From: Hyalangium gracile
Lineage (GTDB): Bacteria; Myxococcota; Myxococcia; Myxococcales; Myxococcaceae
DNA: 64,000 bases
Direction of reading: 5' to 3'
Assembly: GCF_020103725.1 (NCBI RefSeq)
Contig: NZ_JAHXBG010000022.1
Location: forward strand, 1 to 64,000
Of the stretch, positions 25,543 through 42,026 are shown piece by piece (the first letter of the stretch is position 1; the number at the start of each line of letters is the position of its first letter). Position numbers and translations under genes: made by a program. The notes under the pieces were generated by a model. That model saw only the letters and a list, made by a program, of their open reading frames with translations, was not told the origin of the DNA and did no database searches.

Positions 25543-26634
25543 ATGGCCAAGGGCAGGACCCCGAAGCAGCGTCGGGCGGCGTCAGGCGGCAAGCGCAAGT
25601 CCGACCCGTCAGCGTCGAAGAAAGCCACTGCCGTCGTCACCACGGGACGGCGGAGGCCCGTCCCGCCACAGCCGAGCCCCAAGCCCCCACCGCCCGCGCG
25701 GGGGCTGGCGCGCCTCCGCCGGGACACTCCGAAGGATCTGCCCGCCGTCGTCCCCCCGGCGCAGGAAGGGGAGGGCGCCCACTCTGTCCTCGCCCGGCTG
25801 CGCAGCCTGGAGCACCTGGAGACCGCTTATGAGGCCTGGCTGGCCCTGAAGCTCGAGCACGGCACCGCCCGGCTCCGCTTCCAGGAGGAGCGCGAGCGCC
25901 TGGATCAGCAGGGCGCCTTCCTCGTGGGGGCCGTCCGGGCCGCTGGCGTCGAGCCCAAGCCCGGCAGTCAGCCCGGCATCATGCCCGCGGGCGCGGACAC
26001 CTTCCTGCGTGGCGCCGAGGCCCGGCTCTCCCAGGCCCGCGAGGAGCTCGCGCGCAAGGAGGCGGAGTCGGAGTCCTTCTACCAGCAGGCCTTCGCGGAG
26101 ATCCGTACCACCCTCTCCGATCGTGTCCGGCGTTACCTCGACGGCTCGCGCCCGCGTCTCCACCTGCTCCTGCGCAAGGTGGGCGCCACGCGCTCCATCC
26201 TCCATGTGGCCCGCGTCGGCGGCGACGAGGCCGTGCTGCTCTGCTTCCTCTTCAGCGGCCGGATTCCCTCCCGTTACGGCTTCCTCTTCGACGACTCCAC
26301 CGAGGATGTCGCGCTGCCACCCGCGCCGCTCTACCCGGACGAAGGCGTCACGCCGCGGGACACCCGTCCGGAGCCCGCCGCCCTGGAGGCGCGGCTGGGC
26401 GCTCCCGGAGAGGTGATTCCCCTCAAGGGATTCCTCCCCGTGTTCGTGCCGCGTCCGGCGGGCGGTGAGGACTTCTTCCGCATGCTCCAGCGCGGACCCG
26501 TGATGGAGGTGGAAGTGGCCGACGGGGCCCAGTTCCGCAACATCCTCTCGCGCGAGGAGGCGGAGCGCTTCGCCGGCCACCTCTTGCGCCTCAAGCTCGA
26601 AGGGAAGCTCGAGCTCGAGGTCGAGGCGGGCTGA
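25543..26634 (+). CDS. Conserved hypothetical protein with basic N-terminus
   Basis: 363 residues, not recognised. Residues 1-60 are Lys/Arg/Pro-rich and probably disordered (GKRKSDPSASKKATAVVTTG). Residues about 85-190 are long helices with coiled-coil character (LEHLETAYEAWLALKLEHGT; ARLSQAREELARKEAESESF). The last 160 residues look like a mixed alpha/beta domain (LHVARVGGDEAVLLCFLFSG ... FLPVFVPRPAGGEDFFRMLQ). No signal peptide or catalytic motif is seen. TAGACT lies seven bases before the ATG and no ribosome binding site is evident. Confidence 0.7.
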   Translation: MAKGRTPKQRRAASGGKRKSDPSASKKATAVVTTGRRRPVPPQPSPKPPPPARGLARLRRDTPKDLPAVVPPAQEGEGAHSVLARLRSLEHLETAYEAWLALKLEHGTARLRFQEERERLDQQGAFLVGAVRAAGVEPKPGSQPGIMPAGADTFLRGAEARLSQAREELARKEAESESFYQQAFAEIRTTLSDRVRRYLDGSRPRLHLLLRKVGATRSILHVARVGGDEAVLLCFLFSGRIPSRYGFLFDDSTEDVALPPAPLYPDEGVTPRDTRPEPAALEARLGAPGEVIPLKGFLPVFVPRPAGGEDFFRMLQRGPVMEVEVADGAQFRNILSREEAERFAGHLLRLKLEGKLELEVEAG

Positions 26635-26722: not shown

Positions 26723-27586
26723 TCAGTAGGTGCGCACCACTCCCACGTCCGCCGTGCCCGCCAGCAGCGCGCTGCCGATGAACAGGTTGTCCGTCTCGGG
26801 GTCGCCGAGCCGCACCGCCTGGAAGATCACCATGTACGTCTGGTTCGCCTGTGGGAAGGCCGAGCCGGGGATGGTGACGCGCTTGGCCCGCCACTCGGTG
26901 GGCACGGCGACGAGCTTCAGGAAGTCGAGCGGCGCCTTCGGGGCGTTGGTGTAGGTGGGCTCGCCCCGCTGCCCGTTGTCGCTCACCGGCACCACCGTGA
27001 CGAAGCCCAGCGTCCGGTCCTGGTCCTGCGGCGGATCCGCCCGGTCGAACGAGAGCTCCGTGTTGGCCTGCTTGCGGACGATTCCTCCGGGCGGGTGCAG
27101 CGCCGGGATGTTCTCGCGGGTGGGCGCGTTCTTCACCTGGCCCACGTACTGCTGACCCTGGTGGTCCGCGATGAACTGGTAGGTGGCGCCATCCTGGTAC
27201 TCCAGCGAGTCGTCGCCGTTGTTGGTGCGGCTGTACGAGCCGGACCCATCGCTGGGGAGCGGCACCTTCTGGGTGCCGTTGATCTGCAGGGTGACGGTGG
27301 CGCCCGTCAGGCCCTGGGGCGCGGAGTTCTCCCCCTTGCGGGTGCCCAGGAAGACGATGGCCGCCGTCTGGCCCGGAATGGTGACGTTGTACAGCCCTCC
27401 GTCCGGGTTGACGCCCCCGTCGAAGCCCGCGGCGACTTCGGGCGAGAAGGGGACGTCCGGGGTGGAGAGCATGGTGCCCACCATCACCGTCTCGGCGGAG
27501 ATCTGGTTGGCGGTCTTCTCGAGATCGCAAGCCAGGGGAGCGAGGAAGCAGGCGGAAACAGCGGAGAACAGCAAGAGGCGTTTCAT
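26723..27586 (-). CDS. Putative lipoprotein of unknown function
   Basis: 287 residues. The signal peptide (RLLLFSAVSACFLAPLAC) ends in a lipobox with Cys at about residue 20. The mature protein appears beta-rich (GATVTLQINGTQKVPLPSDG; ATYQFIADHQGQQYVGQVKN) with a carboxypeptidase-regulatory or Ig-like flavour, and shows no catalytic motif. It is not recognised as a named family and is probably anchored in the envelope. Its start lies 94 bases from the divergent CHASE2 gene. Confidence 0.72.
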   Translation of the reverse strand: MKRLLLFSAVSACFLAPLACDLEKTANQISAETVMVGTMLSTPDVPFSPEVAAGFDGGVNPDGGLYNVTIPGQTAAIVFLGTRKGENSAPQGLTGATVTLQINGTQKVPLPSDGSGSYSRTNNGDDSLEYQDGATYQFIADHQGQQYVGQVKNAPTRENIPALHPPGGIVRKQANTELSFDRADPPQDQDRTLGFVTVVPVSDNGQRGEPTYTNAPKAPLDFLKLVAVPTEWRAKRVTIPGSAFPQANQTYMVIFQAVRLGDPETDNLFIGSALLAGTADVGVVRTY

Positions 27587-27680: not shown

Positions 27681-30272
27681 GTGCAGAACCCCTCCGTCCA
27701 GTCTCCCGGCCGCCGCTTCCTCAAGCGGCTGGGGTTTGCCCTGCTCCAGATGGCCATCTTCGGTGGCCTCATGGGAGGGCTCGTCTCCGTTCGCGTGCCG
27801 CGGACGCAGCTCGAGACGGAAGGCGCGCCCCAGACGGTGCTGGCCCACCTGGTCGAGCTGCTCGACCGCCCCGAGCGCGTCACCTACGACGCGCGCGTCC
27901 GTGCCCTGGGCGAGTCGCTCCAGCGCCAGCGCCCCAAGGAGTCCAAGCCGCAGGACCGCGTCGTCGTGGTGACGGTGGACGACGACACGCTGAGCAGCGC
28001 GCGCCAGAGCCAGCACCCGGGGCTCGCCTCCTACCCGTGGCCGCGGGAGCTCATCGGTCAGATGACAGGGCGGCTGGTGGAGGAGGGCGCCTCCGTCGTG
28101 CTGATCGACATGCTCTTCCCCGAGCTGAGCCCGCGCGGGTGCTCCGCCTCGCAGCCCGGCGCCGAGGAGGCCTCCGATGACGGCTCCTTCCGCCGCCTGC
28201 TGAACCAGGAGCCCGGCCACTCCGCGCTCGCCTTCTCCTGGAGCGTGCCCCGCGTCAGCCCGCCCGCGTTCCAGCTCTGGCCCTACCGGGTGCGGCTGGG
28301 CAGTCACGCCAACCAGTCCCAGGCGCGCACCCAGGCCCAGGAGGTGCTCGCGGCGCAGCGGCCCGCCTTCTTCATCCCCTCGGAGGACAAGGTGGAGGTG
28401 TGGGCCGGCGTGGAGGACGAGCGCGAGGGCCAGACGCTCGCCGCGCGGTTCGGCGCCAGCCCTGCGCCCGTGCGCGAGCGCCGTAACTCCGACGACGCCT
28501 CGCGCTTCACGGCCTTGGATCTCTTCGTCTCCCTGGCCGAGGTGGAGGTGGAGGGGCTGGATGCCTCCCGGCTGCTGCAGGTGCGCACGCTCCAGCACCC
28601 CGTGGTGCAGCTGCTGGGCTCGCAGAGCCTCTATGGCGCGGTGACCGGCTTCCCGGACGCGGACGGCACCGTGCGCGGCATGCTCCACCTGGTCAGCTAC
28701 GCCCCGCGCGAGGGCGAGCGCCACGTGCTGCCCTCCCTGCCGCTGGCCGCGGCCATGAAGCTGGCCGGCACCCGGAAGCTGCGCTACGCCGACGGCCGGC
28801 TCCACGTGGGGGACGCCTACTCCTTCCCCATGGACGAGACGGGCTACAGCCTCATGCGCTGGGAGGCGGGGGACGCGGGCCGCACGGCGGGCGCCTCGGT
28901 GTTCCGCTCCATCCGCGCGTGGAACATCCTGCTCAACCTCTTCGACGTCAGCGAGGGGCGGCCCGCGCGCTCGGCGCACGATCTCGAGAAGCGCGCCGTC
29001 ATCCTCACCAACACCTCCACCTACGCCACCGACTACAAGGCCACGCCCATCGGCAAGGCGACGCCCGGTGGCTCCGTGCTGGCCCAGTCGCTGGAGAACA
29101 TCCTCCAGTCCCAGGGCATCCGCCGCGCGGCGCCCCGGCTGGATCTCCAGGCCACCATGGGCATGGCCTTCCTCGGGGCCGCCTTCGCCTTCTTCTTCAG
29201 CCGCAGCTTCCGCTCGGGCTTCGGCGCCGTCCTCTACTTCTCCAGCGCGGTGCTGCTGGGCGTGGGCTACTTCCTGGTGGCCCGCTACGTCTTCATCGAG
29301 CGGCAGCTGTGGATCGCCGTGGCGGGCCCGGTGCTCGCGATGGTGGCTACGTTCGGGTTCACCACCCTGTACACCGTGCGCACGGAGGATGAGATCCGCG
29401 ACTTCGTGAACCACGCGCTCGGGCGCTACGTGAGCCCCGAGGTGGCGCGGCTGGTGACGCGCGACCTCACCCTGCTGGTGCACCCCGAGCGCCGGCAGAT
29501 GACGATGTTCTTCTCCGACATCGCCGGCTTCACCCGGCTCTCCGAGCAGATGGAGCCGGAGCGGCTCGTGCAGTTCCTCAACGAGTACCTCACGGAGATG
29601 ACCATGGCCGTGCGCTCCTCGGGCGGCCAGGTGGACAAGTACATCGGCGACACGGTGATGGCCTTCTGGGGCGCTCCGGTGCGCACGGACCGGCACGCGC
29701 ACCTGGCCTGCGAGGCCGCCCTGAAGATGCGCGCCGTGCTGCTGGAGCGCCAGCCGCTCTGGGAGAAGAAGTACGGCCACCGCATCCAGTTCCGCGCCGG
29801 CATCAACAGCGGGACGGTGGTGGTGGGCGACATGGGCACCGAGCTCAAGTCCAACTACACCGTCTTCGGCGACGCGGTGGGCGTGGCCTCGTGGCTCGAG
29901 GGCTGCAACAAGTTCTATGGCACCCTCGTGCTGGTGGGCGAGAGCACCGCGCAGATCGCGCGCGACGCCTATGTCTTCCGCGAGGTGGATCGGGTGCTGG
30001 TGCGCGGCAAGACGGCGCCCATCCGCCTTCATGAGCTGCTGGGGCGCCACGGAGAGATCTCCCCGCGCATGCAGGAGATGCTCGGCGTGTACGAGCAGGC
30101 GCAGACGGCCTATCACCACCGCCGCTTCGACGAGGCGCTCGCGCTGTTCGAGCGCTGCGCCTCGGAGTATCAGGACTCGGTCGCGGACGTGTTCGCGGGC
30201 CGGTGCCGGCGCTTCCTGATCGCGGCTCCGTCGGAGGACTGGGATGGTGTCTACGAGGTCGGAGAGAAGTGA
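27681..30272 (+). CDS. CHASE2-domain class III cyclase-like protein with altered catalytic residues
   Basis: 863 residues. A membrane helix at about 20-35 is followed by an extracytoplasmic CHASE2 sensor at about 90-440 (RVVVVTVDDDTLSS ... VVLIDMLFPELSP ... AVTGFPDADGTVRGMLHLV). Three helices occupy about 490-570 and a cyclase domain about 600-790. Metal aspartates are present in MFFSDIAGFTRL and KYIGDTVMAFWG. The usual GDxVNxAxRLEG is GDAVGVASWLEG here, near residues 728-739, so the transition-state Asn is Gly and the Arg is Trp; catalysis is doubtful. The GTG start is 9 bases after TATCCT. It overlaps the M48 gene by 29 bases, suggesting coupled expression. Confidence 0.88.
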   Translation: MQNPSVQSPGRRFLKRLGFALLQMAIFGGLMGGLVSVRVPRTQLETEGAPQTVLAHLVELLDRPERVTYDARVRALGESLQRQRPKESKPQDRVVVVTVDDDTLSSARQSQHPGLASYPWPRELIGQMTGRLVEEGASVVLIDMLFPELSPRGCSASQPGAEEASDDGSFRRLLNQEPGHSALAFSWSVPRVSPPAFQLWPYRVRLGSHANQSQARTQAQEVLAAQRPAFFIPSEDKVEVWAGVEDEREGQTLAARFGASPAPVRERRNSDDASRFTALDLFVSLAEVEVEGLDASRLLQVRTLQHPVVQLLGSQSLYGAVTGFPDADGTVRGMLHLVSYAPREGERHVLPSLPLAAAMKLAGTRKLRYADGRLHVGDAYSFPMDETGYSLMRWEAGDAGRTAGASVFRSIRAWNILLNLFDVSEGRPARSAHDLEKRAVILTNTSTYATDYKATPIGKATPGGSVLAQSLENILQSQGIRRAAPRLDLQATMGMAFLGAAFAFFFSRSFRSGFGAVLYFSSAVLLGVGYFLVARYVFIERQLWIAVAGPVLAMVATFGFTTLYTVRTEDEIRDFVNHALGRYVSPEVARLVTRDLTLLVHPERRQMTMFFSDIAGFTRLSEQMEPERLVQFLNEYLTEMTMAVRSSGGQVDKYIGDTVMAFWGAPVRTDRHAHLACEAALKMRAVLLERQPLWEKKYGHRIQFRAGINSGTVVVGDMGTELKSNYTVFGDAVGVASWLEGCNKFYGTLVLVGESTAQIARDAYVFREVDRVLVRGKTAPIRLHELLGRHGEISPRMQEMLGVYEQAQTAYHHRRFDEALALFERCASEYQDSVADVFAGRCRRFLIAAPSEDWDGVYEVGEK

Positions 30273-31392
30273 GCGGAGCCCGTGGCGGCTCGGAGCCGGC
30301 GCGCTGCTCGCCGGGCTGCTCTCGGCCTGCCAGGCGACGGACAAGCCCGCCTTCATCGCTCGGGCGGAGGAGAAGATCGAGGTCCAGCGGCGCAAGCTCA
30401 ACCGCACGCTGGCCGAGCGCACGGAGTGGCTCGGCTCGATGTCGTCCGTGCTCTCGGGCTGCGACCTGGAGCGGCGCAAGGCCTACGAGCTGGGGCCGGA
30501 GCAGGAGGATGCGCTCGGCCGCGGGGTGACGCAGCGCCAGCTCGCCGCGCTCGGGGCGGAGCCGCTGCCGGCCAGCGATCCGGTGGCCCGCTACGTGGAG
30601 CAGGTGGGCCAGTACCTCGCGCTGGTCGCCGAGGCGGTGGGAAATGGCAACGGGCCGGACCGAGCCCGGCGCCCCGAGCGCTACCTCGACAACCGCCCGT
30701 GGCCGCTGGCGGGCTACCAGTTCGTGGTGATGCCCTCGGAGGAGCCTCGGGCCGTCGGCAATCCGGGGGGCGTGGTGATGATCTCCACCGGCTTCCTGCG
30801 CTCGCTCGAGAGCGAGGAGGAGCTGGCGGCGGTGCTCGCGCACGAGGTGGCGCACGTGCAGCGGGGCCATGGCGTGGAGGTGCTCAAGGCCTTCATGTGC
30901 GATCACGCGTCGCGCAAGGAGTCCTCGCCCGCGCTCACTGCCTTCGGCCAGGGCTCCCCGCCCCAGGAGGGCTCCGCCTCCGGTGCTCCCCCGAGCGGGT
31001 CGGAGACGGGAGGCACCGAGTCGCTGCTCGGAGGCGCCGGGCTGGAAGCCGCGAACCTGTACCGGGAGGGCTTCCCCCGAGACTTCGAGCTGGAGGCGGA
31101 CCGCATCAGCGTCCGCATCCTTCAGGCCGCGGGGTATGACGCGCGAGCGCTCCCCGCGCTGCTCCAGCGGATGGCCCGGGAAGTCCCGGCGAAGCATGCC
31201 TGGCTCCGGATGCACCCTCCACCCGTGGAGCGGCTGGAGATCATCGGCGAGCGGCTCGAAGCGCTCGGCGCGGCGAGGAGCTGGCCCTCGGCGGAGGCGG
31301 TGTCCGCGCGCACCAGGCGCTTCCTGGAGGCCATGGCGTCCGTGAAGGCTTCGCCTGAGGTGCGGGCCTCACATGGAGCGCAGAGCCCTTGA
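30244..31392 (+). CDS. M48-family zinc metalloprotease, lipoprotein
   Basis: 382 residues. The signal sequence ends in LLSAC, a lipobox with Cys at about residue 29. The peptidase active site is LAHEVAHVQRGH (HExxH plus the later His) at about residue 198, and the third zinc ligand is the Glu in FELEADRISVRIL near residue 285, with the VVMISTGFLRSLESEEELAA segment typical of M48C (BepA/LoiP-like) proteases. Such enzymes survey outer-membrane assembly in the periplasm. The gene overlaps the end of the CHASE2 cyclase gene. Its own 3' end overlaps the OmpA gene on the other strand by 24 bases. Confidence 0.9.
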   Translation: MVSTRSERSERSPWRLGAGALLAGLLSACQATDKPAFIARAEEKIEVQRRKLNRTLAERTEWLGSMSSVLSGCDLERRKAYELGPEQEDALGRGVTQRQLAALGAEPLPASDPVARYVEQVGQYLALVAEAVGNGNGPDRARRPERYLDNRPWPLAGYQFVVMPSEEPRAVGNPGGVVMISTGFLRSLESEEELAAVLAHEVAHVQRGHGVEVLKAFMCDHASRKESSPALTAFGQGSPPQEGSASGAPPSGSETGGTESLLGGAGLEAANLYREGFPRDFELEADRISVRILQAAGYDARALPALLQRMAREVPAKHAWLRMHPPPVERLEIIGERLEALGAARSWPSAEAVSARTRRFLEAMASVKASPEVRASHGAQSP

Positions 31393-40551: not shown

Positions 40552-41826
40552 TCAGGCGGCGGCGGAGGTGTCGCCGGGCAGGAGGGCGCCACGGGGCTCG
40601 GGGATGAAGAGGGCCACGGGCAGGCTCTTTCCGGGCACCATGGCGGCAGGGGCCTCGCGCCACTGGAAGGCCTCGCCTGCCTGCTCGTGCGTGGCGCGGG
40701 AGACGAGCACGGGCGTGCCCACCGTCTTGGTGAGGCGCTCGATGCGGCTGGCCAGGTTCACCGTGTCTCCGATGGCCGTGTACTCCATGCGCCGCGAGGC
40801 GGAGCCGATGTTGCCCAGCACCACCGGGCCGGTGTGCACGCCCACGCCCATGCGCAGCCCCGGCTCGCCCCGAGCCTCGCGCTCGGCGTTGACGGCCTCC
40901 AGCTCGCGCACCATGTCCAGCGCGCACTGCACGCCCTGGCGGGCGTGGGCCGCATCCGCGATGGGCGCGCCGAAGTACACCATCAGCGCGTCCCCGATGA
41001 ACTTGTCCAGGGTGCCGCCGTGGCGGAACACCACCTCCACCATGCGCCCGTAGTACTCGTTGAGGATGGCCACCACCTGCTGTGGCGGCAGCCGCTCGCT
41101 CAGGGCGGTGAAGTCCCGGATGTCCGCGAAGAGCACCGTCACCTCGCGCAGCTCTCCCACCGTCTTCGAGATGGCCAGATCCTGCAGGCGCTCGGCCACG
41201 GCGGGGGAGAAGTAGCGGCCGAGCCGGGCGCGCTTGAGCTCCTCGCGCGTCACCGCCGTCAGCAGCGCGCGGATGCGCACCAGCAGCTGCGAGGCTCCTC
41301 CCGCGCTCGCCGCCAGCACCACCACCGCGGTGATCTGCGCCCCGACGGAGATGTCCGCCAGCGCCTGCAGCCGCACCTCCGCCAGCGACGCCGTCACGGT
41401 GACGATCACCGTCACCAGCCGGCGCAGCGTCAGGGCCGACAGGAGCACCAGCGTGACGTAGATGCCCAGCGTGAAGCCCGCCACGCCGCCCGGAGACGGC
41501 GACAGCGGCAGCGACAGCGACTGGAGCCAGAAGATCGCCGGCACATCCACCACGGCCAGCATCAGCCCCGCCCACTGCGTCAGCCACCGGGAGCGGTAGA
41601 CGCCCACCATCGCCACGGCCGTGGCCGCCCAGTACGCGGCGAAGGGCGTGATGTAGATGGCCCAGTCGGCCAGCCCGCGCAGGAGGCCCAGGTAGAGGGT
41701 GATGCCGAAGATGGCCGTCACCGCCAGGAAGCGCACCCACGACAGGCGCACGGCGTTGCGCACGCGCTCCGCATCCAGCGCGCGCGTCAGGCTCTCGTCC
41801 GTGCTCTGTCCCGAGACTTCCTTCAT
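40552..41826 (-). CDS. Membrane-anchored class III adenylate/guanylate cyclase
   Basis: 424 residues from the ATG at 41826 (an ATG at 41901 would add 25 unlikely residues). About six membrane helices fill residues 30-190 ([19 protein letters not shown] onward), followed by a linker and a cyclase domain at about 230-400. Metal aspartates lie in [12 protein letters not shown] and [12 protein letters not shown], and [14 protein letters not shown] has both the Asn and Arg needed for catalysis. It should therefore be active, unlike the CHASE2 protein at 27681. The Lys in LDKFIGD suggests ATP as substrate. Confidence 0.9.
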
Positions 41827-42026
41827 GCGCCGGGCTGCCCCACGCTCTGTGTGTAACGCGGTTGCACACTCTGGCATGGGTCCCGTGCCCGTGCACCTCA
41901 CTGGCAGCGAGGGCCGGCTCGCCTGCCAGCGCAGGAAGTTTCTCGGAGGTAACCGGGTGGGTAGGGTGAGGTAGGCAGCCAGGCGTGGCGGGGCGGAGGT
42001 TTTTCGGGTAGAGGCCGCGCGTCGCC

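Follow-up and report, generated by a model that had tools for sequence, protein, structure and literature searches.

The window, i.e., the whole stretch of 64,000 nucleotides that was analysed, covers positions 1 to 64,000 of the forward strand of contig NZ_JAHXBG010000022.1 of Hyalangium gracile (GCF_020103725.1). It contains a gene for a protein that combines a CHASE2 sensory domain with a class III cyclase-like domain, an M48 peptidase gene sharing 29 bases (30244-30272) with it as noted in a preliminary description of the sequence, a divergent lipoprotein-like gene whose product has no match in Pfam or NCBIfam, a 363-aa gene next to the latter, and a second class III cyclase gene (Table 1).

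Table 1. Genes, domains and active-site positions in the window.
Feature	Positions	Strand	Basis
CHASE2 plus class III cyclase-like protein, 863 aa, GTG start	27681..30272	+	full-length orthologs
CHASE2 sensory domain, residues 61-484	27861..29132	+	Pfam PF05226, E 1.1e-28
Helical stretch 485-580 ahead of cyclase domain, taken to be membrane helices plus linker	29133..29420	+	AlphaFold2 helices 485-505, 513-541, 548-580; membrane location presumed from these
Class III cyclase-like domain, residues 603-778	29487..30014	+	Pfam PF00211 Guanylate_cyc, E 4.4e-25; predicted fold similar to 3r5g CyaB
Asp613, metal ligand, kept	29517..29519	+	
Lys653, base-binding, kept	29637..29639	+	
Asp657, metal ligand, kept	29649..29651	+	
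Thr727, base-binding, kept	29859..29861	+	
GDAVGVASWLEG, residues 730-741, degenerate transition-state helix	29868..29903	+	
Gly734 (GGC) where catalytic Asn is expected	29880..29882	+	alignment to CyaB/CyaC
Trp738 (TGG) where catalytic Arg is expected	29892..29894	+	alignment to CyaB/CyaC
Lys777, kept	30009..30011	+	
C-terminal helical tail, DWDGV motif close to its end	30051..30269	+	AlphaFold2 helices
M48 peptidase gene overlapping the receptor gene, lineage-specific neighbour (5/96 genomes)	30244..31392	+	
Divergent lipoprotein-like gene, 287 aa, adjoins most ortholog loci	26723..27586	-	lipobox read by eye
363-aa gene adjoining the lipoprotein gene, also syntenic	25543..26634	+	
Second class III cyclase, with its catalytic residues in place	40552..41901	-	

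The roles of the active-site residues of class III cyclases, which concern the metal, the base, the transition state and the phosphate, are well established. The domain of the window protein is recognized by the Guanylate_cyc profile and contains both metal aspartates and the base-binding Lys and Thr, and its NxxxR motif is absent; in addition it keeps Lys777, which we take to be the phosphate-contacting position. The preliminary description had reported the replacement of Asn by Gly and of Arg by Trp, the retention of both metal aspartates, and an intact Asn and Arg in the second cyclase of the window, all of which are borne out by the codons and, for the second cyclase, by the sequence read at its locus. 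Alignments with the solved structures of CyaB from Pseudomonas aeruginosa (3r5g) and CyaC from Spirulina (1wc1), enzymes with the same fold, span most of the catalytic domain and run without register shift; both enzymes have Asn and Arg at the places where the window protein has Gly and Trp, and a supply of these residues from a shifted position is thereby ruled out. The Asp of the GD pair, D731, was given up as an indicator of an inactive domain, since its place is taken by Arg in CyaB and by Pro in CyaC. A sequencing error or a one-off event is likewise ruled out by identical Gly and Trp codons in two other genomes, with 90% and 81% protein identity.

The AlphaFold2 model of the protein has a mean pLDDT of 87, and the altered positions fall into its helix 731-746. 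The predicted cyclase fold superimposes on 3r5g with a TM score of 0.90 by target length, its Foldseek matches are CyaB, CyaC and Cya2, and the cyclase domain is thus modelled as intact in fold despite the lost catalytic residues. Long helices predicted at residues 9-36 and within 485-580 may serve as membrane anchors. A motif like the DWDGV of the C-terminal tail also occurs in the paralogs L009 and L016.

Orthologs of the receptor and their active sites

Orthologs were searched in the GTDB family of the window organism, which consists of predatory soil bacteria (96 genomes, threshold E 1e-115 or better), and beyond the order the survey consisted of one pattern-based contig scan. The receptor was found in 92 of the 96 family genomes, nearly always as a single copy; the sole genome with two matches is G070, in which the gene is split across two contigs and whose CHASE2 half, having no cyclase domain, is excluded from the 92. 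Two genomes with no match (G064, G067) are 79-80% complete and a third (G018) is 93% complete, and the match in G024 contains one stop and falls short of the E-value threshold. A stop inside the listed match occurs in one of the 92 orthologs, in a draft assembly. Since most ortholog loci, even at protein identities of about 35%, have the divergent 287-aa gene, the 363-aa gene or both on their upstream side, the receptors form a set of syntenic orthologs and are not merely similar cyclases. The lipoprotein-like gene is present in 82 of the 96 genomes; as an obligate partner it is unsupported, being absent from some receptor-bearing genomes, among them G014, G025 and G034. Three small genomes of 2.1-2.7 Mb (G025, G113, G114) retain the receptor among just three class III domains, of which the other two have a non-CHASE2 architecture, and their receptor carries further active-site damage (D657E and Arg to Lys).

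Both metal aspartates, Asn and Arg occur together in five of the 92 orthologs (G014, G020, G022, G029, G068). Asn is the sole one of the four residues to be lost in 64 orthologs, Asn and Arg are both lost next to an intact metal site in 15, Arg alone is lost in one, and the metal site is changed in seven. Considered residue by residue, the positions of Asp613 and Asp657 are retained in 87/92 and 89/92 orthologs, respectively, versus 10/92 for Asn, and the Lys777 position, at which most orthologs have lost the residue, is Lys in 7/92. Controls in the same alignment have all four residues almost throughout: 49 of 50 for P2 (the G000:C19-type CHASE2-cyclase paralog; 50 of 93 places taken), 29 of 30 for P3 (the G000:C48-type; 30 of 38 places taken) and 64 of 64 for distant CHASE2 cyclases, the latter drawn from the best 80 of the pattern-based scan and picked by the second metal motif, not by Asn or Arg.

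The lesions differ between clades. The window clade (G000/G002/G006) combines Asn to Gly with Arg to Trp, while its sister clade (G001/G003/G004/G005, presumably Stigmatella) has a metal Asp replaced by Ala and retains Asn and Arg. Eleven genomes of g4/g8/g12 have Asn to Lys plus Arg to Phe or Tyr; in Corallococcus g43 (16 genomes, the genus name being extended from G083 and G073) the Asn position holds Gly in 12, Ser in three and Arg in one; Myxococcus g23 (27 genomes, name extended from G095) has Asn to Gly; and G030 has Arg to Ala. Lys653 is deleted and Asn changed to Ala or Thr in G012/G026/G032, and a deep clade of 22 genomes, which includes the three small ones, mostly has Asn to Ala. 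The base-binding Lys653 position is Thr in three Corallococcus genomes (G074, G077, G079).

The catalytic columns (Asn, Arg, Lys777) underwent a mean of 13.7 changes on the tree versus 4.4 for other conserved columns (P 0.013, by sampling and post hoc). With a mean of 2.0, the columns for the metal and base ligands (both Asp, Lys and Thr) do not fall significantly below the latter (P 0.17), and both metal Asp, Lys and Thr/Ser are kept in 74 of the 87 degenerate orthologs. The nucleotide binding proposed in the preliminary description is consistent with this retention, whose excess is not significant at the P value given; in the reading favoured below the receptor probably still binds nucleotide.

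Retained ligands for substrate and metal, together with the 64 orthologs in which Asn is the sole loss, are also what one would see if some cyclic nucleotide were still made without Asn and Arg, and Rv1900c, with His in place of Asn, is described as active (PMC4886424). Orthologs that have lost Asn alone may for this reason retain some activity. The window protein, however, has lost Asn and Arg, Trp is no chemical substitute for the latter, and the alignments to CyaB and CyaC offer no alternative residue. Yan et al. are said to have found in 1997 that both residues are essential, which counts against residual activity as well. With Arg also replaced by Trp, a residual or altered cyclase activity is therefore unlikely in the window protein, and we regard it as a poor explanation of the receptor.

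Selection on the cyclase domain and history of the lesions

Pairwise dN/dS values (Nei-Gojobori) of the cyclase domain range from 0.02 to 0.30 over 18 pairs, which are not independent of each other and include one pair of two intact receptors and one pair of the window protein with the intact ortholog of G020. The value of the cyclase domain is lower than that of the CHASE2 domain of the same protein in 15 of the 18 pairs; in the comparison with the paralogs it is the lower one in 11 of 16 pairs for P2 and in eight of 10 for P3. The damaged cyclase domain is under purifying selection, and its low dN/dS shows that it is not decaying. These values bear on the view that the receptor, as one of about 31 class III domains, became a redundant enzyme and now drifts towards loss under relaxed selection, a view to which the 31 Guanylate_cyc matches in the genome of H. 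gracile, the diversity of the lesions and the loss of further ligands in some orthologs would lend themselves. Yet the domain is as constrained as its intact paralogs, the gene persists in nearly all family genomes with a single stop in a draft assembly, and even the reduced genomes retain it, so that relaxed decay appears improbable.

The order of events was addressed with a tree of 91 orthologs and nine paralogs, from which eight active-site columns were removed and both pieces of the G070 gene were left out. Intact orthologs are scattered over this tree. If losses are irreversible, at least seven are counted, and eight by lesion type, because the window clade and its sister carry different lesions; unordered parsimony gives five changes. 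A two-state model does not separate losses from gains, with log-likelihoods of -19.99 for loss only, -19.82 for gain only and -18.73 for both. Loss is nevertheless favoured because all outgroup paralogs used are intact, because L332, a sequence from another family that is sister to the entire family set, is intact, and because replacements and codons vary between clades. Asn is missing as well from a second group (L330, L333, L334, L335), which belongs to another family. The exact placement of intact genes has weak SH-aLRT values (38.7 for G020 and 19.7 for G014), and on the re-rooted tree a support of 100 each is obtained for the window clade, for the window clade with its sister, and for Corallococcus with G022/G068. 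Since catalysis was broken in different ways in different clades while the protein was kept, the function that was preserved had probably been non-catalytic already before the breaks.

A receptor with a candidate pseudo-cyclase output

The cyclase domain of the window protein has the signs of a pseudoenzyme, i.e., catalytic residues that are gone, a fold that is kept in the model, and purifying selection. The reading we favour, and hold to be rather more probable than all others together, is that of a CHASE2 membrane receptor with a pseudoenzyme class III cyclase domain, the output of which needs no cAMP synthesis. According to this proposal the periplasmic CHASE2 domain would sense a signal, the cyclase-fold dimer would still form and probably bind nucleotide with Mg2+, and its conformational state would serve as the output instead of cAMP and be relayed to a partner protein. 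A strictly co-conserved partner gene was not found among P2, P3, the divergent lipoprotein and the M48 gene over the 96 family genomes.

The preliminary description had suggested a role as sensor or regulator rather than enzyme and had pointed to the overlapping M48 protease gene. The suggested regulatory role gains from the loss shared by the window clade, the recurrent losses elsewhere and the purifying selection. As to the protease, the overlap suggests co-translation in the window, and wherever the M48 gene is present, in five genomes, it follows the receptor gene at a short distance downstream, as a dedicated regulator of the protease would lead one to expect. These are, however, just five of 96 genomes (E 1e-40 or better), three with a lesion in the cyclase and two without, and 84 of the 87 degenerate orthologs have no such gene nearby or elsewhere at this threshold. 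A functional tie to the protease is thus unsupported, the M48 link is ruled out as a general explanation, and a dedicated M48 regulator is very improbable. In G006 (Hyalangium versicolor; L204) the M48 ortholog appears as two same-strand matches with a gap and may have diverged or been rearranged.

Among eukaryotic class III cyclases, inactive subunits are a familiar feature. The receptor might pair with an intact cyclase and contribute the metal-binding half of a shared site, as fungal NeoR or mammalian C1 do. In the rhodopsin guanylyl cyclases NeoR/RGC of chytrids one subunit, like the window protein, has no NxxxR and keeps its metal aspartates, which it supplies to active heterodimers (PMC12264004). 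The high retention of both metal aspartates versus Asn points in the same direction, as does the damage to opposite halves of the site in the window clade and its sister. On the other hand, NeoR/RGC are eukaryotic, have a rhodopsin sensor and form a proven heterodimer with an intact partner, whereas the window receptor has no strictly co-conserved partner. The two paralogs tested family-wide reach 38/96 (P3) and 88/96 (P2) genomes at the thresholds used, so that an obligate CHASE2 partner was not found and P3 in particular is ruled out as one. Moreover, the three reduced genomes keep a receptor with D657E and Arg to Lys next to two non-CHASE2 domains, and most orthologs also retain the Lys and Thr/Ser that bind the base and form part of the other half. 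A half-site subunit is therefore doubtful, albeit less so than the other alternatives weighed here. In several genomes, such as G006, G014, G020 and G096, the intact P3 (L270-L284) is located some 20-50 kb away from the receptor; most others do not have it.

Returning to the receptor with a non-catalytic output, other known systems resemble it in part. CyaD1, CyaD2 and CyaK of Sinorhizobium meliloti likewise join a CHASE2 sensor and a class III cyclase in one membrane protein, but they make cAMP upon a signal that arrives via an outer-membrane protein (PMC13001267), whereas the window protein has neither transition-state residue. A replaced Asn with metal ligands that mostly stay is shared with Rv1900c (His) and with a mycobacterial set (Ile); the members of the latter are described as soluble, with Arg kept, and proposed to be active (PMC4886424), while the window protein is a CHASE2 receptor that has lost Arg. 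A description of this receptor family was not found in the open-access literature searched, and PMC10211241 gave no match to cyclase terms; subscription papers were mostly outside the search, so that one may have been published.

Extended to the whole family, the proposal would read as follows: the receptor has dropped catalysis at least eight times by differing lesions, including opposite halves of the site in sister clades, and has kept its fold, most nucleotide ligands and its place in the genome; non-catalytic signalling would then be ancestral and its main function, and the five intact copies would be remnants or dual-function proteins. We consider the case for and against this wider scenario to be evenly balanced. 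If it is true, a conserved bacterial receptor family shows that a cyclase domain itself can act as a signalling output, and such genes should not be counted as cAMP producers. The orthologs with an intact site, with loss of Asn only, with loss of Asn plus Arg, and with a changed metal site would furthermore provide a natural comparison set that could split cAMP-dependent from cAMP-independent roles.

Some observations concern CHASE2 proteins and class III domains other than the receptor. In Myxococcus xanthus the CHASE2 protein WP_011554259.1, which is not necessarily the receptor ortholog, is among the genes affected by prey quorum signals and is named in a passage on down-regulation (PMC9257966). 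Within the genome of H. gracile, 30 of the 31 class III domains were read, and Trp occupies the position of the catalytic Arg in five of these 30 (L018, L020, L025, L028, L008), with Asn retained in L018 and L020. Five further domains of the same genome (L019, L022, L023, L026, L030) are without Asn and/or Arg.
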